NCBI RefSeq assembly: GCF_003258515.1
Contig: NZ_QGEH01000002.1
Location: 124,001 to 188,000 of the forward strand
Direction: 5' to 3'
DNA length: 64,000 nucleotides
Source of the DNA: Marinobacter bohaiensis
GTDB taxonomy: Bacteria; Pseudomonadota; Gammaproteobacteria; Pseudomonadales; Oleiphilaceae
Part shown: piece by piece, positions 10,581 to 60,570 of the stretch
Position numbering within the stretch: the stretch's first letter is position 1
How the letters are laid out: every line of letters begins with the position of its first letter
Notes under the pieces: generated by a model
The model's database searches: none
What the model saw: only the letters and a program-made list of their open reading frames with translations
What the model was told of the DNA's origin: nothing
Translations under genes and position numbers: made by a program

Positions 10581-11252
10581 TCAGCGGATCCAGTAACCGG
10601 ACAGGTCGGACGCCGGCAGGTACACCGCCAGGGCGTCGTCGTCCGTATACAGCGGCTCGGCCTCCAGGTAGCCCCGTGCCAGGCTGCCACCACAGTCATC
10701 GCCGGTGATCGCCACCGCCAGCACCTGGCCGTCCAGGGCCGGGCTCACGGTGCCCACGGTTTCGCAGCCGTTCGCCGCCAGGCTGAACTGGCCGTCGCTG
10801 GCCAGGGTCAGCGGATACAGGGCGCCGTCGATGCGCAGCTGGTAGTCGCCCGCCAGGTCGGATACCGCCGGGGCGGTGGCGTCGTTGACCGCGTCCAGCC
10901 GCACCGACACGCCGTCGATGTCGCAGGTCAGGTGGTCACCGCCGGTGTCGCATTCCGCGCCGGCAAAGCTCACCGCACCGCTGCCGGTGTCGAACGTGCC
11001 GCTGTACTCGGTGCGCCGGTCCTGCTCATCCAGCCCGACAAACGTCAGGTTGTCGTTGCCGATCAAAGTCACCGTGGCCAGGTTGGGCTGGCCGTCCGCA
11101 TCCTGATAGACGCCGCTGTACTGGCCGACGACGCTGTCCAGCGCCACGCTGTCGTCGTCACTGTCGGATCCGCCGCAGGCCGCCAGGGCCAGTGTCGCGC
11201 CGAGCATCGTCAGGCCCCGCAGATACGGGAATCGCTTGGTGTCCGTCATCAT
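10581..11252 (-). CDS. Putative lipoprotein of unknown function
   Basis: About 223 residues. A signal peptide ends in a lipobox LALAAC followed by GGSDSDDDS, an acidic linker usual for surface-exposed or outer-membrane lipoproteins. The rest is beta-rich with four cysteines (near ECDTGG, CDIDG, GCETVG and DDCGG) that could form two disulfides. I do not recognise a domain. Starts are ambiguous: GTG at 11264 overlaps the SurE-like stop by four bases, ATG at 11261, or the tandem ATGs at 11252/11249, which give the most standard signal peptide. Translational coupling to the upstream exported SurE-like gene suggests a joint role. Confidence 0.7.
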   Translation of the reverse strand: MMTDTKRFPYLRGLTMLGATLALAACGGSDSDDDSVALDSVVGQYSGVYQDADGQPNLATVTLIGNDNLTFVGLDEQDRRTEYSGTFDTGSGAVSFAGAECDTGGDHLTCDIDGVSVRLDAVNDATAPAVSDLAGDYQLRIDGALYPLTLASDGQFSLAANGCETVGTVSPALDGQVLAVAITGDDCGGSLARGYLEAEPLYTDDDALAVYLPASDLSGYWIR

Positions 11253-11260
11253 GGCCCCCA

Positions 11261-12256
11261 TCACTCGCTCAGTGCGTTGAGTTTCTGGGCGGTCAGCGCC
11301 ACCTTGGCGCGACTGGCCTGCACGTGGGCATCGATGGTGCTGATGGTGACGTAGCCTTCCTGCACCCGTTTGCCTTCGGCATTGGCGCTGTCGTCATCAA
11401 CCAGTCCGCCCGTGAACGAAATCCCGGACGCGCCCGCATAGGCGGCCCGCGCCTGGGCCAGGGCCTCGGCTTCGGTCAGGGAGCTGTCGGCCGCCATGAT
11501 GCTGGCTGCCACATAGCTCATCATCAGGTCGTTCTCGGACATATCCTCGACGAACATGGCGTCGTAGCCGCCGGCGTTCCAGGCCACGTCGGTGAAGCGG
11601 TAGCCCAGGTGGTTGGCCACGTCGTCCGGCGTATTGACGTTGAGGCCGGTGAACGGCGGCAGCAGCGCCTCGCCGGCGGCGCGGCCGGCGTCCAGTTGGT
11701 CGACGATGTCGATGACGATCTGGGCCACGGTCGTCGCCTTGGTGGCGTCCCCGTCGGCCGCGCTCACCGCGATCGCCGGGATGCCCCGCGCGATGCTGAT
11801 CATGGCGGCGCCGAGGGTGCCGGAGTTGTTGTTCATGTAGCCCAGGTTATTGCCCTCGTTGGGACCGGAAATCACCAGATCCGGCGCTGCGCCCCAGACC
11901 GCGGGCGCCACCACGTCCAGCCCGTGCAACACCGCCATCACCGGGGTGCCTTCGGTGAAATCCTCAAAGGCGACGGTTTCATCGGTGTCGCCGACGCAGT
12001 ATTCCTGCTGGCCGGCCTTGCTGTCGTCCACGGAGACCGGTTTGAGGAAATTCAGGGCACCGCCCTTTCCGCTCTGGCCGGTACACGGCGCCGACATGAT
12101 CACGTTGTGACCGGCCGCCTGCAGGGCGCTGAACATCGTCTGGATGTTATCGGTCTCCCAACCGTCGTCGTTGGTCAGCAGAATGTTGAGGGCGGACGCC
12201 TGCCCGCTGAAAATCAGGGTGCCGGCCAGGGCCAGCGGGGCGAGGGATGTTTTCAT
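11261..12256 (-). CDS. Exported SurE-like 5'/3'-nucleotidase (acid phosphatase)
   Basis: SurE-fold metal-dependent phosphatase of 331 residues. Unlike canonical cytoplasmic SurE (about 250 residues, beside pcm), it begins with a signal peptide cut near SGQASA. The metal-binding NDDG (29-32) follows at once; SGKGGALNF, SGPNEGNNLG and NNSGTLGAAM correspond to the other active-site loops. Periplasmic or secreted location implies action on external nucleotides or phosphate esters. The ATG at 12256 is chosen because it starts the signal peptide and has AGGAG upstream; the frame extends further without such support. It is followed by a coupled lipoprotein gene. Confidence 0.8.
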   Translation of the reverse strand: MKTSLAPLALAGTLIFSGQASALNILLTNDDGWETDNIQTMFSALQAAGHNVIMSAPCTGQSGKGGALNFLKPVSVDDSKAGQQEYCVGDTDETVAFEDFTEGTPVMAVLHGLDVVAPAVWGAAPDLVISGPNEGNNLGYMNNNSGTLGAAMISIARGIPAIAVSAADGDATKATTVAQIVIDIVDQLDAGRAAGEALLPPFTGLNVNTPDDVANHLGYRFTDVAWNAGGYDAMFVEDMSENDLMMSYVAASIMAADSSLTEAEALAQARAAYAGASGISFTGGLVDDDSANAEGKRVQEGYVTISTIDAHVQASRAKVALTAQKLNALSE

Positions 12257-12374
12257 GGGTTTACTCCTGTCATTGGGTGAAAAGCAGGAGCAGCTTCGGC
12301 CCGGCGCATGTCCGAACCGTGAAAAAGACATCCCAGAACGCTTTTGGATATCTCCGGAACGTGCCGTGAGAGGA

Positions 12375-13583
12375 TCAGGTGACGATTTCTTCCAGGTGCC
12401 GCAGCGCCGGCTCGATGGCTGAGGCCGGCAGGGCCAGCCGGTAGCGGGACTGGGCACGGGTGGACACACGCTCACTCTCGAACAGGTAGGGCGCCGCCAG
12501 CGACTCGCCGAATCGCTGGATCAGCTCGTCCTTGATGCGATTGCGGTTCTGGTCGAGGGTCTTGGAGCGCAGGCCGTTCTCGCGCAGGTCGTTGATCGCC
12601 TTGGCGTGGCCGTCATGGGCGGCCATGAAGTCCGCCAGCCAGCGCCCGGCCGCCCGGTCGGGCCGGTTCGACGGCGGGTTGGCGTACCATCCGTCGCCAT
12701 CAGAGCCACCCTCGCAGCGCTGACGCGCGTACCAGAGGTAATAGAACAAAGGCGTTCGCGGCAGCGCCACGGCACTGCCGCGCACCCGCACTTCGGCCCG
12801 TTCCAGATCAAACGCAAGATGGTCGTCCCGGCGGGCCACGGCCAAGGCCGCTTCGGCATCCCCGGCGTGATGGGTCAACGCCCACAGGAACCAGGCCTGG
12901 CGACGTTCGTCCAAGCCCTCCCGGTGCAGCATCAAGGCCAGTGCCAACTGCTCGGGGAAGGGCCACTCAATGCGCTCGCGCAGCCGTTCCAGCAACGCCG
13001 ACGGATCAGTCTCGCAGCTCGCAAGCGGCGCCACCCAGCGTCGCGCCCGGGAGGCCGACACGCCCTCGCCGCGCAGCGTTTGATACCAGGCCTGCTGAGA
13101 CCCGGTCAGCGGTGTCGGCAATAGCCGTATCAGGGCAAGCGCCAGCACCGCAAGCACGCCGCCCTGCCCCAGGGCCGCCCACCACGCGGGCTGACAGTTC
13201 ACTGTAAAGGCCGCATGCAGCGTCGTGTCCTCATGCCGCCAGCGAATGTCGATATCCGCACCCACCGTAGTCTCCCGCGTAGCGGGGCCCAGGGCACTCA
13301 CCGTCGTCCGGCAGCTCTGGATAGCCGGCCGCAGCCCGCCCTGGACATCCAGCCTGTCCAGGTCCGCCTGCAACTGGCCGGCGATGGTGCCGTAGAGGCT
13401 GTCACGGTCATCGCCGTTGACCAGAGCCTGATCCACCGCGCCTGGCAGCGACGCCTGCAGTTGCCCCTCCAGGCTGGCCAGCGCCGACTGCCGCGCCACG
13501 ACCACCATCAGCAGCGCCAGCCCCCCGGCCAACACCAGCGCGGCGAGACCGGTCCACCACGGACGCGCACTCACAGAACGCAC
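12375..13583 (-). CDS. Two-TM membrane protein with a winged-helix-like C-terminus
   Basis: A 402-residue protein without a family I can name. One membrane helix (about 10-30), a periplasmic segment of about 100 residues holding exactly two cysteines (C91, C130), a second helix (136-155), then 245 cytoplasmic residues. The C-terminal 258-386 has the order of an OmpR/PhoB-like winged helix: strands DLERAEVRVRG and AVALPR, LFYYLWYARQR, then LRSKTLDQNRNRIKDEL as recognition-helix region and RYRLALP as the final hairpin. It overlaps the upstream binding-protein-like gene by 13 bases, so the two are made together. Inference: a membrane-bound transcription regulator of the ToxR kind, with reversed domain order. 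Confidence 0.6.
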   Translation of the reverse strand: MRSVSARPWWTGLAALVLAGGLALLMVVVARQSALASLEGQLQASLPGAVDQALVNGDDRDSLYGTIAGQLQADLDRLDVQGGLRPAIQSCRTTVSALGPATRETTVGADIDIRWRHEDTTLHAAFTVNCQPAWWAALGQGGVLAVLALALIRLLPTPLTGSQQAWYQTLRGEGVSASRARRWVAPLASCETDPSALLERLRERIEWPFPEQLALALMLHREGLDERRQAWFLWALTHHAGDAEAALAVARRDDHLAFDLERAEVRVRGSAVALPRTPLFYYLWYARQRCEGGSDGDGWYANPPSNRPDRAAGRWLADFMAAHDGHAKAINDLRENGLRSKTLDQNRNRIKDELIQRFGESLAAPYLFESERVSTRAQSRYRLALPASAIEPALRHLEEIVT

Positions 13584-14413
13584 TCCGGGTCCTGGACGCG
13601 GAAACCGGGATGGATACGGCGATAGATCGGGGCCATCACCGCCAGCGCCGCCAGCAGATCACAGCGCGCGCCCGGCTCGAGGACGCGGCGGCTGGCGAAC
13701 CAGGCGCCGGTGGACAGGCCCTCGGCAATCACCAGGCGGCGTTCCGGCGGCACGGCCTGCTCACCGACCCATTTCAGGCCGCTGATGATATCCACGTCGC
13801 CGGTGTTGAAGGCCTGATAAAGACTGCGCCGGTCGGCGAAGAAATGCAGCTGCTCCGGCGCCAGTTCGATACCCGCCTGGCGCAACTGTCCCATGGGCTG
13901 CTGGAAAGACGACTGACTCTGGCTGTCCTGAATCAGACCCACCCGCTTGTCCGCGAAGTAGTCCGCCGTGAGCCGCGGCTTGTCCGTCCGGCTCAGCCAG
14001 TAAACGGAATAGGTGGGCGTCTGCAACAGGCGCTCGTAGTACTGGTCGACGTTGGCCAGCAGCCCCCGCAGCACCCGGTGCCGATTCCACAGCAGGTCGT
14101 AACGCTGGTCCGCCAGGTCGCGGGTGTCCAGTAAGGCGCGGGGTTGCCAGGAAATGTCCACACCGCCGAAGCGGTCGGCCAGCCAGCCCGACTGGCACAG
14201 GTGATCCGCCAGCGCCGGCGCCAGGTAGTTGGTGGTGGTCAGGATGCGGAAATCCCGCCCGCCCTGTGCGGCGCCGGTGTCACAGCGGTAGTGGTCGTAG
14301 GGGCCCAGCGTCGCATTCGCCACGCGCACCTGCCCCAACAGCAGAGCCAGGCCGGTGGCGGCGAGCACGACCAGCGCCACCAGCACACGGTAGACAAGCG
14401 GCGATAGAGGCAT
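13571..14413 (-). CDS. Membrane-anchored periplasmic binding-protein-like protein (PhnD/SsuA-like fold)
   Basis: 280 residues. A long N-terminal hydrophobic segment (8-27) without a clear cleavage site suggests an uncleaved anchor. The rest resembles type-2 periplasmic binding proteins: FRILTTTNYLAPALADHL opening strand, DLADQRYDLLW, KRVGLIQDSQSQSSFQQPMGQLRQ, then SLYQAFNTGDVDIISGLKWVG, the typical hinge and ligand-pocket order of PhnD/SsuA folds. No ABC permease or ATPase is adjacent; the partner is the overlapping two-TM protein, so sensing rather than import is likely. A PHO box with a matching -10 ends 55 bases upstream. Confidence 0.6.
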   Translation of the reverse strand: MPLSPLVYRVLVALVVLAATGLALLLGQVRVANATLGPYDHYRCDTGAAQGGRDFRILTTTNYLAPALADHLCQSGWLADRFGGVDISWQPRALLDTRDLADQRYDLLWNRHRVLRGLLANVDQYYERLLQTPTYSVYWLSRTDKPRLTADYFADKRVGLIQDSQSQSSFQQPMGQLRQAGIELAPEQLHFFADRRSLYQAFNTGDVDIISGLKWVGEQAVPPERRLVIAEGLSTGAWFASRRVLEPGARCDLLAALAVMAPIYRRIHPGFRVQDPECVL

Positions 14414-14452
14414 GAACGGAACCAGATCATTCGGGAAAACGGAATGTTACGG

Positions 14453-14486
14453 AGGTTAGGTCAATCCTGTGACAGTTCTGTGACAC
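14453..14486 (-). promoter_or_regulatory. PHO box and -10 of the binding-protein/regulator pair
   Basis: On the minus strand, GTGTCACAGAACTGTCAC (14486-14469) is an 11-base direct repeat of TGTCAC, matching the E. coli pstS box at 14 of 18 positions. After ten bases comes TAACCT (14458-14453) as -10. The pstS box of this window has the same ten-base spacing, so PhoB activation under phosphate limitation is the simplest reading. Confidence 0.6.
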
Positions 14487-14504: not shown

Positions 14505-15416
14505 TCAGTAGCCGGCCGCCGACTGCATGGCCCAGAGGTGGGCCGCCACCAGCGCGCGCCAGGGGGAAAAGTCCGCCAGCCAGTCGCGGGTTTCCTGCTG
14601 CGTGGGTTTGTCCTCCCGGCCCAGCAGGGTCTGGAGGTTGCGCCGTACGGCCACGTCGCCGTCGAGGGAGCCGTCCAGCCAGCCGTAGCCGCGCAGCAGA
14701 GCGTAGCTGACGGTCCAGGGCCCGATGCCACGCACCGCGTTGAGCCGTTCCTGGATGGTGTCCGCCGGCGTGTCGGACAGCCATTGGTCCAGGGGCAGCT
14801 CGCCGCCCAGGATCTGTTCGCTGACCGTCTGCAGGGTGCGGGCCTTGGTGCGCGACAGCCCGGCGCCCCGCAGGGCTTCCGGCGCCGCGCCCGCCACCTG
14901 CTCCGGGCCCGGCGGGCACCACAGGCCGCTGCTGTGGCGTAGGCCGAGCGCGCGGATAAAGCGCCGGCGCACGGACACCGCCGCCTAGACGCTGATCTGC
15001 TGGCCGGTCACCGCCCAGGCCAGAGCCTCGAACGGGGTGGCGGTCTGGGGCACGCGCAGTCCGGGCTGGCGCGCAATCAGGGGCCCCAGCGCCGGGTGAT
15101 CGGCCAGCGCGGCGGCAAACTCGGCCACCGGCTGATCGAGGCCGACCATGCGCCGGACCTGCGCGGTCAACCGGTCGCGGCTATCGGGTCGGGGCGCGCC
15201 GTCCACGTGCAATGCCGCCCGCATCCGGCCGTCATCGAACGCCAAAGCCAACAGCGCCGGCTGGCCATCCCATATCTGCCCCTTGGCGATACGCGCCCCG
15301 TCCACCCGTTCCGCCACCTCTTCAGCGTCGCGGCGATGAAAGGCCAGGATGTCCTCCGCCCGGAAATCCGCCGGCAGGGGCAGGTCGACACTTAACGCGG
15401 GCACGTCAGTCGGCAT
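14505..15416 (-). pseudogene. alkA: DNA-3-methyladenine glycosylase II (AlkA) interrupted by an in-frame amber codon
   Basis: AlkA excises alkylated purines. Read from ATG 15416, the frame gives a normal AlkA N-terminal domain up to AWAVTGQQISV, then TAG at 14987-14985, then in the same frame AAVSVRRRFIRALG and the rest of the enzyme through the HhH motif (VRGIGPWT) and the catalytic-Asp region (LDGDVAVRR) to 14505. Read-through length is 303 residues, as expected for a whole gene, so a single base change explains it. A GTG (14978) six bases after the stop, with AGGCGG before it, could restart a 157-residue C-terminal half. The start overlaps the ada stop by 11 bases. Confidence 0.85.
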
Positions 15417-16518
15417 CGTTGTCTCCAGCCTGGGCCGCGGCCTCCCGCTGCAGCAGCGTGCGTTTGCGCTCCAGCCCCCAGCGATAGCCGGACAGCCCGC
15501 CGTCGCTGCGCACCACGCGGTGACAGGGGATGGCGCAGGCGATGGCGTTGGCGGCACAGGCCTGGGCCACCGCCCGGAACGAGCGTGGCGCGCCGATGCG
15601 ACGGGCCACGTCGGTGTAGCTCAAGGTCTGGCCCGCCGGGATCTGGCGCAGCACCTCCCAGACGCGGCGCTGGAAGGCCGTACCCCGAATGTCCAGCGGC
15701 AGGTCGAGGCCAGTCCGCGGCTGCTCCACGAACGCCACCACCTGGTCGATGACGGCCTGAAAGCCGGCCTCGGCGGGTCTCAGATCCGCCGCGTCGAAAC
15801 GCTGCGCGAGGTCCTGCGCCAGCGCGTCCGGATCGTCGCCCAGCAGGATGGCGCAGACGCCGCGGTCACTCTGGGCCACCAGCACGTGACCCAGCGAACA
15901 GGGCGCCACGCCGTAGTGAATCTCGACCCCTTCGCCGCCACGGCGGTAGCGGCCCGGGGTCATGCCCAGCACGGCGTCGGACTCGGCGTAGAAACGGCCG
16001 CTGGAACCGTAGCCGGCGGCGTAGACGGCGTCGGTGACGCTGGCGCCCTGGCCCAGCGCGTCCTGCAACCGCCCGGCGCGATGAGCGGCGGCGTAGTTAC
16101 GCGGCGTGATGCCGGTCGCGGCCTTGAAGGTGCGTTGCAGGTGATACGGGCTCCAGCCGACATGGCGCGCCAGCTCGTCCAGGGTGGGCACACCGTCGGC
16201 CCCTTCAATGTAACGGCACAGCGCCGCCACTTTACCGGCCCGTTCCCGGTCGGGGGCGGCCTGCTCGGGGCGACAGCGCTTGCAGGGCCGGAAGCCGGCG
16301 GCCTCGGCGGCGGCCGGGTCGCTGTGGAAGCTGACGTTCTCGCGCCGGGCCGGACGCGACGGGCAGGTTGGCCGACAATAGACGCCGGTGGTGCGCACGG
16401 CGTACACGAACGCACCATCCGCCTCAGGATCCCGCGCCAGCAGCGCCTGCCAGCGCGGATCATCAACCAGCGGCCGGGCATCGCCGGATGGGGTGGAGCG
16501 GATGTTGGGGGCAGTCAT
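15406..16518 (-). CDS. ada: Ada: methyl-DNA repair enzyme and transcription activator
   Basis: Bifunctional adaptive-response protein of 370 residues. The N-terminal domain has the zinc/methyl-acceptor cysteines C48, C52, C79 and C82 (YCRPTCPSR, CKRC) that take methyl groups from phosphotriesters. An AraC-type helix-turn-helix region follows (HVGWSPYHLQRTFKAATGI). The C-terminal O6-methylguanine methyltransferase has PCHR with acceptor Cys332. It heads an operon with the broken alkA. A well-formed Ada box lies upstream, so self-activation by methylated Ada is expected. Confidence 0.95.
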   Translation of the reverse strand: MTAPNIRSTPSGDARPLVDDPRWQALLARDPEADGAFVYAVRTTGVYCRPTCPSRPARRENVSFHSDPAAAEAAGFRPCKRCRPEQAAPDRERAGKVAALCRYIEGADGVPTLDELARHVGWSPYHLQRTFKAATGITPRNYAAAHRAGRLQDALGQGASVTDAVYAAGYGSSGRFYAESDAVLGMTPGRYRRGGEGVEIHYGVAPCSLGHVLVAQSDRGVCAILLGDDPDALAQDLAQRFDAADLRPAEAGFQAVIDQVVAFVEQPRTGLDLPLDIRGTAFQRRVWEVLRQIPAGQTLSYTDVARRIGAPRSFRAVAQACAANAIACAIPCHRVVRSDGGLSGYRWGLERKRTLLQREAAAQAGDNDAD

Positions 16519-25837: not shown

Positions 25838-26884
25838 TTACAGCTCGTCGCCCGTCATCGGCGTCAGGCTCTGGGCGTTCTTGGCCGCAGCCATGCGAGC
25901 GTCACGCGCCAGCGGGATCAGGCCAACGTCAGCCAGGTAGCCGTTCGGGCCCCAGGTGCCTTCGCTGGTGAATTCCTTGACGTATTCGCTCATGCCCGGA
26001 ATGACACCCACGTGGGCTTTCTTCACGTAGAACCACAGTGAACGGGCCAGCGGGTATTCATCGCTGGAGATGGCTTCCTGAGTCGGCTCTTCACCGTTGA
26101 TGGTGGCGGCCTGCAGGGTGCCGGAGTTCTCTTCCAGGAAGCTGTAGCCGAAGATACCGAAAGAGCTCTTGTCGGCGGTCAGCTTCTGGACGATCAGGTT
26201 ATCGTTCTCGCCCGCTTCGATGAAGGCGCCGTCTTCACGGAAGGTCATGCAGACTTCTTCGCGCTTGCTTTCTTCCATGTCGGCGATCATGTCGATCTCT
26301 TCACAACCGGCTTCCATGGCCAGTTCGTTGAAGGCGTCGCGAGTACCGGAAGTCGGCGGCGGCCCCATCACGCGGATCGCTTCGTTCGGCAGGCTGGAGT
26401 CAACGTCGCTCCAGTTTTTGTACGGGTTGGCCACCAGGCCGTCGCCGTTCGGGTTGGGAACCTGCTTGGCCAGGGCCAGGTACAGCTGCTCCAGGCTGAT
26501 GTCCAGGTTCGGGGCGCCCTTGGCGCTGGCCAGAACGATGCCGTCGCTGCCGATCTTCACTTCGGTGATTTCTTTAACGCCGTTGCTCTGACAACGCTCG
26601 AATTCGCTCGACTTCATGCGGCGGGACGCGTTGGTGATATCAGGATGCTGGGTACCCACGCCGGCGCAGAACAGCTTCAGACCACCACCGGAACCGGTTG
26701 ACTCCAGCTTCGGTGTCGGGAAATCCGTGTTACGACCGAAACGCTCGGCGACCACGGTAGCGAACGGGTAAACGGTCGAGGAACCGACGATGTTGATGGT
26801 GTCACGGGCCAGAGTCGGGGTTGAGATGGTGGCCATGGCGCCGGCTACTGCAACGCTGGCGACAGCTGTTTTCAGTTTATTCAC
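25838..26884 (-). CDS. pstS: Periplasmic phosphate-binding protein PstS
   Basis: 348 residues. Signal peptide to about residue 26, then DTINIVGSSTVYPFATVVAERFG, the phosphate-binding start, and later GSGGGLKLFCAG, TSGTRDAF (phosphate-contacting SGTRD) and EYPLARSLWFYVKKAH. Binds inorganic phosphate with high affinity for PstCAB. A PHO box lies upstream. Unlike E. coli PstS it has four cysteines (CAGVG, CQSNG, GCEE, EVCMTF), which could form disulfides. Confidence 0.96.
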   Translation of the reverse strand: MNKLKTAVASVAVAGAMATISTPTLARDTINIVGSSTVYPFATVVAERFGRNTDFPTPKLESTGSGGGLKLFCAGVGTQHPDITNASRRMKSSEFERCQSNGVKEITEVKIGSDGIVLASAKGAPNLDISLEQLYLALAKQVPNPNGDGLVANPYKNWSDVDSSLPNEAIRVMGPPPTSGTRDAFNELAMEAGCEEIDMIADMEESKREEVCMTFREDGAFIEAGENDNLIVQKLTADKSSFGIFGYSFLEENSGTLQAATINGEEPTQEAISSDEYPLARSLWFYVKKAHVGVIPGMSEYVKEFTSEGTWGPNGYLADVGLIPLARDARMAAAKNAQSLTPMTGDEL

Positions 26885-26991
26885 GTTGAGCCTCCATAAT
26901 GCGATTTATTCACGGGTTCCGCTGATCTCCGGAAGTCGGACACGGCATTCGGACCCGTCTTCGAAACCGGCAGTGGTCAGCCGATGTGTGA

Positions 26992-27025
26992 AGCCTAAGG
27001 GGTCTTTATGACACTTAGATGACAC
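26992..27025 (-). promoter_or_regulatory. PHO box and -10 of the pst operon
   Basis: Minus-strand GTGTCATCTAAGTGTCAT (27025-27008) is an 11-base direct repeat of GTGTCAT. Ten bases later TAGGCT (26997-26992) serves as -10. It lies 124 bases before the pstS start. The rest of the 329-base gap to the dctQ-like gene (26885-27213) holds an AT-rich stretch near 27035-27130 and a GGAGGAA at 27180-27186 too far from the dctQ start to be its ribosome site; nothing else is evident. Confidence 0.7.
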
Positions 27026-57942: not shown

Positions 57943-60432
57943 TCAGGCGATACGACGCGCCTCACGCCCGGCCTGGATCAACGCGAACAGGTCGCGCACG
58001 CTGACCCGGCCGTCGCCGTCAATGTCGTGGCGGTCGACGCTGGCGCGGCCGAACAGCAGCGCCAGGGTCAGCCGTGTCAGATCGCGACCGTCGATGCGGC
58101 CATCGCCGTTGAGGTCCGCCGACGCCACCGGCGCCGCTTCGCCCATCGCCAGCGCGATCACCACCGGGTCGTGGTCCGAGGCCCGGTAGGCGTCCGGCGC
58201 GTAGAAGCTGGCCTGCTGCTCGGCGGTCTGGTACTCCAGGTTGTAATCCAGCACCTTGGGCTCGTCGGCGTTGATGGGCCAGACGGTGGCGTCCACGACC
58301 TTGTCCGCCAGCGCCTCGTTGGCCAGGGCGTGGTCGAGGGTGCCGGCCGCACCGTAGTAGACATAGGAGTACGCCTGGGGCCCGACGAACTGGTCCACCA
58401 GGTTGGTGTAGCCGCTGTTGCGCAGGGTCGTGATCGGGTCTTCCAGGGCGTAGGCATTCATGTCGCCGATCACCAGCACGTCGTCCTCACCGCTGCCGGT
58501 GGCGTCGTTGGCCAGCCAGCTGGAGAGCGCCCGGGCCGCCTCGGTGCGCGAGGCATTCCAGCAGCCCTGGCCGTCGCCCTGGGCGGCGTTGGCGCCCTCG
58601 GCATCGCCACAGCCCTTGGACTTGAGGTGGTTGACCACCACGGTCACGCCATCGTCGCTATCGAGCCCTCGGAACGTCTGGGCCAGGGGCTGACGGTTGA
58701 GGTCGACGAACGGGGCACCGGTCAGGGTCGCCGCGTCGCCCACGGTCTCGACCCGGTCACTGCGATACACCAGCGCCACGGCGATGGCGTCGCCGCCCAA
58801 CTGCGCCAGGCCCGGATCCACATAGGACCAGTGGCTACCCAGCGCATCGGCCAGTTGGGCCACCGCGCTGTTCTCGCCGTAGCCGTCGTTCTCGATCTCC
58901 ATCAGCCCCACCACGTCGGCGTCCAGGGCGCGGATGGCGCTGACCAGTTTGTCGGTCTGGCGCTGCAGCTCTTCCGCGTCGTTGGCGCCGCGTGCGGTCG
59001 GGAAGCCGCCGCCCAGGCCATCGCCGTTGAAGAAGTTGAGTACGTTGAACGACGCCACCACCAGATTGCCGCGGTCCTGCAGGTCCGGAGCGCCCGGGCG
59101 CGGGTTGTCGGCCACGAAGGTCGGCGCCTGCACCGGCTGCACGCGCCAGGCGTCGAAGCGATAGTCCAGCACGCCGGTCAGGCCGCTGACCCGATCCCCA
59201 TCGCGCACGGTATTGGCGGCGCTCAGCTGCGGCGCCGGATAGGGCACGACCTCCGGATTCTGGGTGTTGGAGGCGTCGTCCAGGATCACGCTATCCAGGG
59301 CGTTCATCTCCGCCACCAGTTGCGCATCGGTGCCCGGAGCCACCACCTGGGTGGGGATGAAATGACGGCCGCTGCCGAGGGTGAGGCTGCCGTAGCGGCC
59401 CAGGTCGTAGGTGTCGTTGACCGTCAGCGGCTGGTCGAAGGTGACCCGCATGCTTTCCCTGGCTTCCGGCGCGTCGGCGTCAGCCCAGGGCAGCTGGATG
59501 GACACCGGCTCAATGGCGGCTCCGGCGCCGCACACGGTCAGGTCGCTGACCGAACTCAGCTCGGTCAGGCCACTGTACTCGACCACCTGGCCGGCGATGC
59601 GTACCCGGTCGCCCACGCTCACGGCCGCGCCCGGCTCGTACACGAACAGCCCTTCGGAGGTGGCCGGGTTGCCGTCCTGGTCGTCGGCTTCCTCCTGGAT
59701 GTAGAAACCGCCCAGGCCGTTGTCGCCGGCGGCGTAGGCGGTCACGGTGGCTTCCACCACCACGCCGGTGTCCACCAGCGGGCTGGTGGCGCCGCTGCCC
59801 TGGATCTCGGAGATCCGGGTCGCGGACGCGCCGCAGGTCATGTCCACATCCCCCGGATCGGTCGGTTCGCCGCCGTTGCCATCAGCGGCACCGAGATCGT
59901 CAAAGCTGTCCTGGCCGTAGGCGTCGTAGCTGACGGCGGGGTCGAAAGCGTTGTAGGGATCGGCATCCGGATCAGTGCCGTCACGGCGGCGCAGGGTCTG
60001 GTTCTGGGTCCTGACGTCGTCATTGCCCCAGTAGCTGCCCGGGTCCTCGCCCACCTGGCCGATGCTGTCGACAATCGCGCCGCCGTTGAGCAGCACCACC
60101 GCGTCGTCGCCGTTGAACAGGCCGGCGCCGGTGGTCTGGTCGGCGACCGCCAGGATCGCGTCGTCCGAGGCGCTGTGGGCGTAGACGTGGTTGGCGCCGG
60201 CGGCCACCTCGCCTTGCAGGTCGAGGGTCACCCCGGCAGAGGTACTGCCGTTGAAGAAGACCTGGATTTCCCAGGCGGTCAGGTCCACCGGGTCGCTGCC
60301 GGTGTTTAGCAGCTCGATCGCCTTGTTGTTGCCGGAGCCTTCGATGTACTCGCTGATGACCAGGCCGGCCTGGGCCGGACCCGCCAGCAGCCCCGCCACG
60401 GCGGCCGCCAGCGTGAGTTTGCGTGAGCGCAT
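57943..60432 (-). CDS. ExeM/NucH-family extracellular endonuclease with dockerin-like tail
   Basis: 829 residues: signal peptide (cut near AQA), lamin-tail-like domain (23-170, LVISEYIEGSGNNKAIELLN), OB-fold region (about 205-330), and an endonuclease/exonuclease/phosphatase domain (about 455-770) with VASFNVLNFFN, MEIENDGYG, VVVNHLKSKGC, VIGDMNAY and SDHDPV. The end has two EF-hand-like loops, DLNGDGRIDGRDL and DIDGDGRVSVRDL, as in dockerin type I. It should degrade extracellular DNA for phosphorus or biofilm release. Two GTCAT half-sites 22 bases apart lie upstream (60516-60542), too weak to call a PHO box. Confidence 0.9.
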   Translation of the reverse strand: MRSRKLTLAAAVAGLLAGPAQAGLVISEYIEGSGNNKAIELLNTGSDPVDLTAWEIQVFFNGSTSAGVTLDLQGEVAAGANHVYAHSASDDAILAVADQTTGAGLFNGDDAVVLLNGGAIVDSIGQVGEDPGSYWGNDDVRTQNQTLRRRDGTDPDADPYNAFDPAVSYDAYGQDSFDDLGAADGNGGEPTDPGDVDMTCGASATRISEIQGSGATSPLVDTGVVVEATVTAYAAGDNGLGGFYIQEEADDQDGNPATSEGLFVYEPGAAVSVGDRVRIAGQVVEYSGLTELSSVSDLTVCGAGAAIEPVSIQLPWADADAPEARESMRVTFDQPLTVNDTYDLGRYGSLTLGSGRHFIPTQVVAPGTDAQLVAEMNALDSVILDDASNTQNPEVVPYPAPQLSAANTVRDGDRVSGLTGVLDYRFDAWRVQPVQAPTFVADNPRPGAPDLQDRGNLVVASFNVLNFFNGDGLGGGFPTARGANDAEELQRQTDKLVSAIRALDADVVGLMEIENDGYGENSAVAQLADALGSHWSYVDPGLAQLGGDAIAVALVYRSDRVETVGDAATLTGAPFVDLNRQPLAQTFRGLDSDDGVTVVVNHLKSKGCGDAEGANAAQGDGQGCWNASRTEAARALSSWLANDATGSGEDDVLVIGDMNAYALEDPITTLRNSGYTNLVDQFVGPQAYSYVYYGAAGTLDHALANEALADKVVDATVWPINADEPKVLDYNLEYQTAEQQASFYAPDAYRASDHDPVVIALAMGEAAPVASADLNGDGRIDGRDLTRLTLALLFGRASVDRHDIDGDGRVSVRDLFALIQAGREARRIA

Positions 60433-60570
60433 GATGCCTGTCCTTTTGCAGTGATGGCTTTGCAGTGCTTGTTGTTGCGAATTTTTCAGGGCATCAACGA
60501 CTGTGCCCGCCGCAGATGACGGGCAGATTGGGAAACGATGACCGGCGTGTGGCGGTTTTAAGACAGGACG

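Follow-up and report, generated by a model that had tools for sequence, protein, structure and literature searches.

A predicted phosphate-starvation-induced pair of a membrane-anchored binding protein and a two-transmembrane regulator in Marinobacter bohaiensis

Introduction

In the AioX-AioS-AioR, ArxXSR and ArrXSR systems, a periplasmic binding protein with a PhnD-like fold serves signalling through a kinase, and its gene lies beside regulator genes (PMC5908839). A different arrangement exists in Vibrio cholerae, where, according to another account (PMC11856585), the binding protein CBP activates, likely directly, the membrane-embedded regulator ChiS, which binds promoters from its place in the membrane; ChiS and a second regulator, TfoS, work at one promoter, with ChiS bringing the DNA to the membrane. 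Here, we analyse a 64,000-nucleotide stretch of DNA from Marinobacter bohaiensis (the window; contig NZ_QGEH01000002.1, positions 124,001 to 188,000), in which the gene for a membrane-anchored type-2 periplasmic-binding-like protein (PBP) overlaps that for a protein with two transmembrane (TM) segments, which we call REG. We consider it probable that the two form a phosphate-starvation-induced pair, in which a membrane-tethered PBP with the phosphonate/phosphite/AioX fold controls a two-TM one-component regulator.

PBP-REG resembles the described systems in part. Whereas AioX passes its signal to a histidine kinase with a response regulator and controls enzymes of arsenic metabolism, Pfam searches find no histidine kinase or receiver domain in PBP or REG, so that a partner of the AioXSR type is lacking, and REG itself carries a putative DNA-binding domain. 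The likeness to CBP-ChiS lies in the combination of a binding protein with a membrane-embedded regulator and in a second regulator at the same promoter. ChiS, however, is a hybrid sensor kinase that responds to chitin, while REG is small, has two TMs and belongs to another domain family, and no kinase part was found in it. ToxR and CadC carry an OmpR-type winged helix-turn-helix (wHTH) domain N-terminal to a single TM. Like them, REG appears to unite a membrane segment and a wHTH domain in one polypeptide (the latter modelled, with Foldseek E-values of 2.2-4.1), but its domain stands C-terminal behind two TMs and matches no OmpR-type profile. The term ToxR-like, used in an earlier sequence-only reading of this DNA, therefore holds as an analogy and not for the domain order.

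How bacteria choose which organic phosphorus to attack, beyond the PhoB response, is in our judgement largely open. A published survey of transmembrane regulators appears to rest on known domains and TM prediction (PMC10269533); since REG has no Pfam domain, it would probably escape a survey of that kind. A description of the PBP-REG pair was not found in the open literature that we searched, most subscription papers lying outside that search. What is new here is a predicted transmembrane regulator that would be coupled to a binding protein, with a C-terminal winged-helix domain of an unlisted family and a regulon linked to PHO control.

Results and Discussion

A PHO-type promoter precedes PBP-REG

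The PBP-REG operon is preceded by a PHO box, GTGTCACAGAACTGTCAC, which agrees with the E. coli pstS box at 14 of 18 positions and with the consensus CTGTCATAWAWCTGTCAY at 15 of 18. A -10 hexamer follows after 10 bp. The same spacing is found at the local pstS-like gene (25838-26905, PBP_like_2), where the box GTGTCATCTAAGTGTCAT at 27008-27025 is followed after 10 bp by TAGGCT, and both the match and the spacing are as the sequence-only reading had stated. Sites at 15/18 of the consensus occur three times in the 64 kb, whereas 100 first-order-Markov shuffles contain 0.04 on average and never more than 1. They precede PBP-REG, the pstS-like gene and a gene for a predicted secreted LTD/Exo_endo_phos nuclease.

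In the related loci described below, the best PHO site reaches at least 13/18 in 37 of 46 PBP upstream regions, from several genera, and lies on the sense strand in 36 of these 37. The mean best score upstream of PBP is 13.3; shuffled sequences give 11.6, and the remaining parts of these loci 11.4. For the -10 spacing, promoters were aligned on the best sense-strand site (at least 12/18 in 33 of 41 non-duplicate loci), the -10 playing no part in the choice of sites; TAnnnT stands at exactly +10 bp in 24 of the 33 and at any of 27 other offsets in at most 2. Promoter spacing counts leave out the near-duplicates L010, L012, L041, L042, L046 and L057 and, for the target promoters, divergent rows as well. 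The PBP-REG promoter thus has the anatomy of the PHO regulon, a PHO box with a -10 about 10 bp on, and PHO-type PBP promoters are present in other genera too. Because the box is combined with a good -10, this promoter should respond to phosphate starvation alone.

The nuclease gene (57943-60435, minus strand; LTD, Exo_endo_phos and dockerin) has its 15/18 PHO-like box at 60549-60566. It is likely a further PHO-regulon member, for DNA-phosphorus scavenging.

PBP has a phosphonate/phosphite-type fold

The model of PBP (predicted local distance difference test, pLDDT, 92.6) displays a bilobed type-2 fold nearest to the PhnD/PtxB/AioX group. The best Foldseek match is the phosphite-binding PtxB (4.3e-8), then PhnD and XAC2383, with HtxB and AioX close behind; ArrX, like AioX, is among the nearest folds. 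The nearest folds reach E-values of about 1e-7, yet TM-scores of just about 0.4-0.5. At the sequence level the matches are weak: PBP of the window scores 14.6 bits against the PF12974 cut-off of 27, this family matches 20 of 41 PBP members at E ≤ 1 (best E 0.001), and the structure 5ub3 is matched with an E of 0.022. A candidate ion-binding stretch with the invariant S166 and the near-invariant D163 aligns with S-T-S-G of 5ub3. The invariant residues also include W89, R92, R111 and D208, and the S-x-S segment is kept. An A-x-A motif near the end of the N-terminal hydrophobic stretch is present in 4 of 41 members and a lipobox-like motif in 2 of 41, so that most members look membrane-anchored, as had been proposed; cleavage may occur in single members.

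ToxS is a stabilising partner of ToxR, and PBP might likewise be chaperone-like or stabilising and sense no ligand, with REG a PhoB-controlled operator-binding regulator and the unit just amplifying the starvation signal. That the two genes mostly overlap and are co-conserved, and that the PF12974 match stays under the curated cut-off, would suit such a role. However, the S-x-S segment with D163 and S166 and the invariant W89, R92, R111 and D208 seem to exceed what a scaffold needs, and the signalling proteins AioX and ArrX are among the nearest folds; we regard a non-sensing PBP as improbable.

The pair is conserved beside scavenging genes

Genome contigs were scanned with four REG sequences, which yielded 44 loci in Marinobacter, Microbulbifer, Bowmanella, Pseudoalteromonas, Vibrio, Catenovulum, Endozoicomonas, Thalassolituus and other genera. 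PBP adjoins REG in 43 of the 44, the exception (L053) being at a contig edge, and in 34 of 42 loci with both genes called the distance from PBP stop to REG start is negative, that is, the longest frames overlap; in the window, where the overlap had been noticed earlier, it amounts to 13 bp on the minus strand. The conserved pairing that a genome survey was expected to reveal is therefore present. The unit is patchy nonetheless, as REG occurs in 25 of 390 genomes of the window's order (27 minus two weak matches that are Cas_NE0113 proteins) and PBP in 3 of 6 genus genomes, own genome included. REG relatives were not found in viral contigs or plasmids.

In the window, the unit reaches past REG to a SurE gene and a lipoprotein-like gene downstream, which the two-gene extent first given to it had missed. 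The SurE gene matches PF01975 (E 3.9e-39) and scores 117 bits against the TIGR00087 equivalog cut-off of 135, which makes it a divergent SurE. A SurE gene of this type lies downstream in 13 of the 44 loci, one of which (L048) also has a divergent TonB receptor. A TonB-dependent receptor gene lies downstream in 26, and in 4 there is a divergent TonB receptor only; the contig of L036 is too short. SurE or a TonB receptor thus stands beside the REG unit in all 43 loci with a visible neighbour, the receptor of L045, which fell outside the receptor cluster, having been confirmed as a TonB receptor. Behind the downstream receptor, a Y_phosphatase3-family gene follows in 26 of 26 cases (one representative scanned, PF13350), and its C-x5-R is invariant in 28 sequences. 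The order PBP-REG-TonB receptor-phosphatase recurs in 18 of 18 further loci of the order, which were picked for having both REG and the phosphatase; 16 are new, G292 and G366 being the genomes of L023 and L018. In four Pseudoalteromonas loci (L037, L041, L042, L046), the receptor is divergent from PBP-REG, with the palindrome described below in the common promoter, and an M28 peptidase gene without the palindrome lies behind REG.

The absence of transporter genes, from which a signalling role for PBP had been concluded, is true of the window but does not extend to the related loci, 31 of 44 of which have a TonB receptor next to the pair; PBP could in principle also serve uptake for this reason. 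Only the Pseudoalteromonas loci have a kinase gene (c19) in the vicinity of the pair, and no cluster of kinase and response regulator is common to the loci. Among 20 REG-minus loci and two paralogues (22 of 60-odd further phosphatase matches), none has such a TonB receptor beside the phosphatase. No SurE of this type besides that of the own genome was found in the wider class (369 genomes, E ≤ 1e-50).

Target promoters share an operator

The stretch that separates REG from its neighbour contains an operator, TTTTAGAGATATCTCTTT-N8-AGATATCTTTTTCAC-N3-ACTGTCAT, seen by eye first and then aligned; the predicted REG-binding element of the target promoters is AGAGATATCTC. The two dyads are 20 or 21 bp apart where both could be located. 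Of 51 promoter rows, 4 belong to M28 peptidase genes and 47 to the others; leaving out 7 near-duplicate, divergent or incomplete rows gave 40, and leaving out the atypical L053 and L058 as well gave the 38 rows of alignment A6. The palindrome GAGATATCTC is present at 8/10 or better in 46 of the 47 target promoters (some of them near-duplicates) and reaches just 6/10 in the four closely related peptidase-gene promoters behind REG. In the 18 REG loci of the order, it scores 8-10/10 throughout.

Of the 34 promoters whose best PHO-like match is at least 12/18, 19 have this box starting at a distance of 29-31 bp from the distal dyad, and nAnn[AT]T stands 10 bp after the second half of this box in 21 of 38, the next best offset having 6. 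The target promoters thus differ from those of the known PHO regulon, with which PBP-REG shares the box and the 10-bp spacing to the -10 that the local pstS also has, by an additional operator and, presumably, an additional regulator on the PHO architecture. The sequence-only reading included neither the operator nor the dual promoter, nor the genes under their control.

Motifs of this length occur often by chance: when 4000 random 250-bp windows were drawn from these loci, 286 contained the palindrome at 8/10 or better, although these windows may contain operators themselves. One could therefore ask whether everything is chance, with unrelated neighbours and a lucky PHO-like site and palindrome. 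Conservation across several families, the sense-strand and spacing locks and profile matches outside the training set (below) speak against this, and we find it hardly credible.

The promoter layout also bears on the sign of regulation, which we infer from it. If PHO spacing holds, the dyads lie near -43 and -64, which are usual activator positions, and the -10 of the target promoters (mostly nAnnnT) is weaker than the TAnnnT of the PBP promoters, as in promoters that need help. Joint activation would suit the targets, given the PHO-like box, the poorer -10 and these dyad positions. REG could instead be a repressor that PBP relieves or enforces, since the proximal dyad touches the PHO-like box and could block PhoB; set against the activator-like positions and the weak -10, repression seems to us rather unlikely.

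The operator tracks REG

In the own genome, a loose operator pattern matched 30 times (its reversed control 6 times), but most of these matches fell in a coding motif that recurs and the real site was not among them, and the short palindrome was equally uninformative in 12 genomes. Both were replaced by R1, a sequence-only profile built from 38 promoters. In the own genome, R1 lists one site at E ≤ 1, at window positions 12305-12355, in a promoter of the training set, and no second. Of the 18 REG genomes that were not used for training, 16 contain a single site at E ≤ 0.01, each between REG and its target; in G369, the site is about 700 bp behind REG. None was found at E ≤ 0.01 in 11 REG-minus genomes, the best values in the five searched at E ≤ 1 being 0.056 and 0.117; apart from G004 and G005, REG-minus status assumes the same 390 genomes in each draw. 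SurE genes of this type in the REG-minus genomes G121 and G160 have palindromes of 7/10 and 6/10, whereas six in REG genomes score 8 or 9. This comparison is limited to two SurE genes because the REG-minus phosphatase loci lack the TonB neighbour.

Five R1 sites at E ≤ 0.001 lie away from the known loci, one before SurE, three before TonB receptors and one before Y_phosphatase3. The first (L175, Catenovulum) precedes a SurE gene in a 3-kb stretch without PBP-REG. In Pseudoalteromonas (L176, L177), the site is flanked by a second REG gene and a TonB receptor; the frame in front of this REG resembles the end of PBP by eye, and tblastn at 1e-5 did not find PBP there. In Bowmanella (L219), where the frames near the operator are on the reverse strand, a second PBP-REG pair is on one side of the site and a TonB receptor gene with an internal stop on the other, behind which a gene for a PI-PLC-C1 protein (PF16670) follows. 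In Oceanobacter (L218), the site separates a second pair from a Y_phosphatase3 gene that follows directly, without an intervening TonB receptor. Two weak matches (E 0.055 and 0.071) are near unrelated genes. A quick REG tree, many of whose branches are weak (six near-duplicates dropped; 5 of 18 further loci gave no row by motif), has at least three switches of target type while the operator stays, which fits a portable control module.

These results provide strong indirect support for the earlier proposal of a one-component regulator, with DNA binding by REG as its predicted part. Another factor, or PhoB, might bind the palindrome, with REG a membrane adaptor or stress protein that travels with the targets; after all, the C-terminus of REG matches no DNA-binding Pfam model, and its DNA binding is predicted. 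Yet the operator is missing from 2 of 2 REG-minus SurE genes and, at E ≤ 0.01, from 11 REG-minus genomes, it follows REG across target types, the invariant REG residues include the predicted recognition helix, and the sequence kin of REG, NE0113, is a predicted direct regulator of transcription according to PMC4012209. Binding by another factor is in our view very unlikely.

REG ends in a predicted winged-helix domain

The hydrophobic segments of REG span residues 8-36 and 133-156, in keeping with the two-TM pattern noted earlier, and a simple scale finds two such segments in 37 of 46 REG members. In the model (pLDDT 92.9), TM1 is followed by a periplasmic loop that contains helices as well as three strands; TM2 and a helical linker then lead to the C-terminal domain. 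For the last ~135 residues, the model shows three strands, then helices and, at the end, a hairpin, with block pLDDT values of 93-98 apart from one loop at 82. This order of elements fits an OmpR-like winged helix with an extra helix, the Foldseek matches being weak, none at E ≤ 0.001; we treat the C-terminus as a predicted winged helix. All fully invariant residues of the 46 members fall within 277-347, a stretch that takes in the predicted recognition helix (A3 omits L025, which equals locus L012, and L010, which equals L016).

Sequence searches point to a different kinship from that first proposed. Pfam and NCBIfam scans of REG gave no match, and searches against PDB sequences gave chance-like matches only, apart from that of PBP to 5ub3. 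An OmpR-type domain finds no support in the sequence: REG is not among the 16 PF00486 matches of its own genome, and hhalign of REG against 12 of these 16 domains gave a probability of 2.4% and an E of 0.02. The winged-helix-like fold thus stands in the model, while the OmpR label lacks sequence support. The C-terminal ~140 residues of two Cas_NE0113 proteins (TIGR02584/PF09623), in contrast, are homologous to REG 245-392. The two weak matches of the REG search, at per-genome E-values of 2.1e-4 and 4.0e-4 over the full domain, are both NE0113 proteins, and hhalign of the REG C-terminus against Cas_NE0113 gave a probability of 98 and a single-pair E of 5e-13, with a template of 2 sequences. By sequence, the REG C-terminus is hence kin to that of the Cas_NE0113 CARF proteins and not to OmpR. 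A 2014 analysis counts NE0113 as one of the CARF families that lack an effector domain and predicts direct regulation of transcription (PMC4012209). Unlike REG, the Cas_NE0113 proteins are soluble and CRISPR-linked and have an N-terminal CARF domain annotated as a ring nuclease, and DQNRN of the predicted recognition helix of REG is not kept in them.

Proposed mechanism

In the mechanism that we propose, PhoB~P would bind the PHO box and transcribe PBP-REG, as the anatomy of the promoter suggests. PBP, facing the periplasm, would bind a phosphorus compound and alter the state of the ~100-residue periplasmic loop of REG; the fold, the gene overlap and the co-occurrence of the pair lead us to this step. 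Since all target classes are either phosphoesterases predicted to be secreted or receptors of the outer membrane, a ligand that contains phosphorus is the obvious guess, and inositol phosphates or nucleotides may be considered, as they fit the enzymes. The winged helix of REG, as a membrane-held dimer or higher oligomer, would then bind two GATATC-type dyads 20-21 bp apart; the operator itself is evident from its conservation, its tracking of REG and the blind matches. REG and PhoB probably act jointly at the target promoters, in an AND-type feed-forward, because the proximal dyad runs into a degenerate PHO half-site with a weak -10 at PHO spacing. The targets would be secreted SurE, a TonB receptor and a secreted phosphatase, or a TonB receptor and PI-PLC, and these costly scavenging proteins would be made only if phosphate is short and a useful substrate is present.

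Several observations weigh against this scheme. As a whole it rests on computation, with DNA binding by REG, the contact between PBP and REG and the ligand all predicted. Foldseek of the whole of REG gave nothing at E ≤ 0.001, and the wHTH-type matches (BaeR and the DNA-binding domains of AdeR, OmpR and CadC) have E-values of 2.2-4.1, amid noise. A PHO site of at least 13/18 is missing from 9 of 46 PBP upstream regions (L017, L019, L020, L021, L030, L031 and the Vibrio loci L055-L057), and the target promoter of the window itself has no PHO match better than 12/18, which stands at another offset. G275 and G359 carry REG and have no R1 site at E ≤ 0.01, palindromes of 8/10 and 9/10 being present, and some of the 18 genomes outside training are congeners of training genomes. 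The check on REG-minus SurE comprises two genes, of which that of G160 matches over part of its length. Four of the five R1 sites away from known loci adjoin a REG paralogue, and the SurE frame at the fifth (L175) is broken near codon 45 in that assembly. Finally, neighbouring genes share ancestry, so that part of the promoter conservation may be inheritance; that the operator stays through at least three changes of target type argues against inheritance alone.

An even bet, in our estimate, is the bolder claim that PBP-REG represents an undescribed signalling class, in which a PhnD/AioX-type PBP directly switches a two-TM regulator with a winged helix shared with CARF proteins, pulls phosphoester-scavenging promoters to the membrane and fires only with PhoB. 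A solute-binding-protein sensor would be joined to a one-component membrane regulator without a kinase, and the unit would add a substrate-level layer to the PHO response in several marine families. If this is true, marine bacteria have substrate-specific, AND-gated control of phosphorus scavenging. The analysis also offers a named operator with predicted targets (SurE, Y_phosphatase3, PI-PLC and TonB receptors), a defined DNA-binding candidate and a functional lead for a domain without any Pfam match.

Features of the locus and neighbouring genes

Table 1. Coordinates of the PBP-REG unit, its promoter elements and the Cas_NE0113 genes related to REG. Positions are those of the window unless a locus is named.
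Feature	Position	Strand	Description or basis
PBP	13571-14413	minus	Membrane-anchored type-2 periplasmic-binding-like protein, 280 aa, phosphonate/phosphite-binding fold
REG	12375-13583	minus	402 aa, two TMs with a periplasmic loop; C-terminal winged-helix-like domain, predicted to be cytoplasmic
REG residues 255-390	12414-12821	minus	Predicted winged-helix domain; KTLDQNRNRIK helix (341-351) strongly conserved
SurE-family 5'/3'-nucleotidase	11261-12256	minus	331 aa; signal-peptide-like N-terminus by eye; predicted regulated gene
Small lipoprotein-like protein	10581-11264	minus	By eye; overlaps SurE gene; relatives behind SurE in other loci
PHO box GTGTCACAGAACTGTCAC of PBP-REG operon	14469-14486	minus	PHO-consensus scoring
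-10 hexamer TAACCT	14453-14458	minus	10 bp after PHO box; spacing as at local pstS
Distal operator palindrome GAGATATCCA (consensus AGAGATATCTCT)	12345-12354	minus	Alignment of target promoters
Proximal operator copy GGGATGTCTT	12325-12334	minus	20 bp downstream of distal copy
PHO-like second half-site CGGACAT, degenerate in window genome	12308-12314	minus	Promoter alignment
Weak -10-like hexamer GAAGCT in SurE promoter	12292-12297	minus	PHO spacing
Cas_NE0113 gene kin to REG	L113:1492-2616	minus	No Pfam match to C-terminal domain
Cas_NE0113 gene kin to REG	L114:784-1938	plus	No Pfam match to C-terminal domain

Upstream of the PBP-REG promoter, an AlkA-like DNA glycosylase gene (14505-14978 and 14985-15557, minus strand; HhH-GPD in its first part) is apparently split by an in-frame TAG, and it is adjoined by a gene at 15406-16518 that looks Ada-like by eye.

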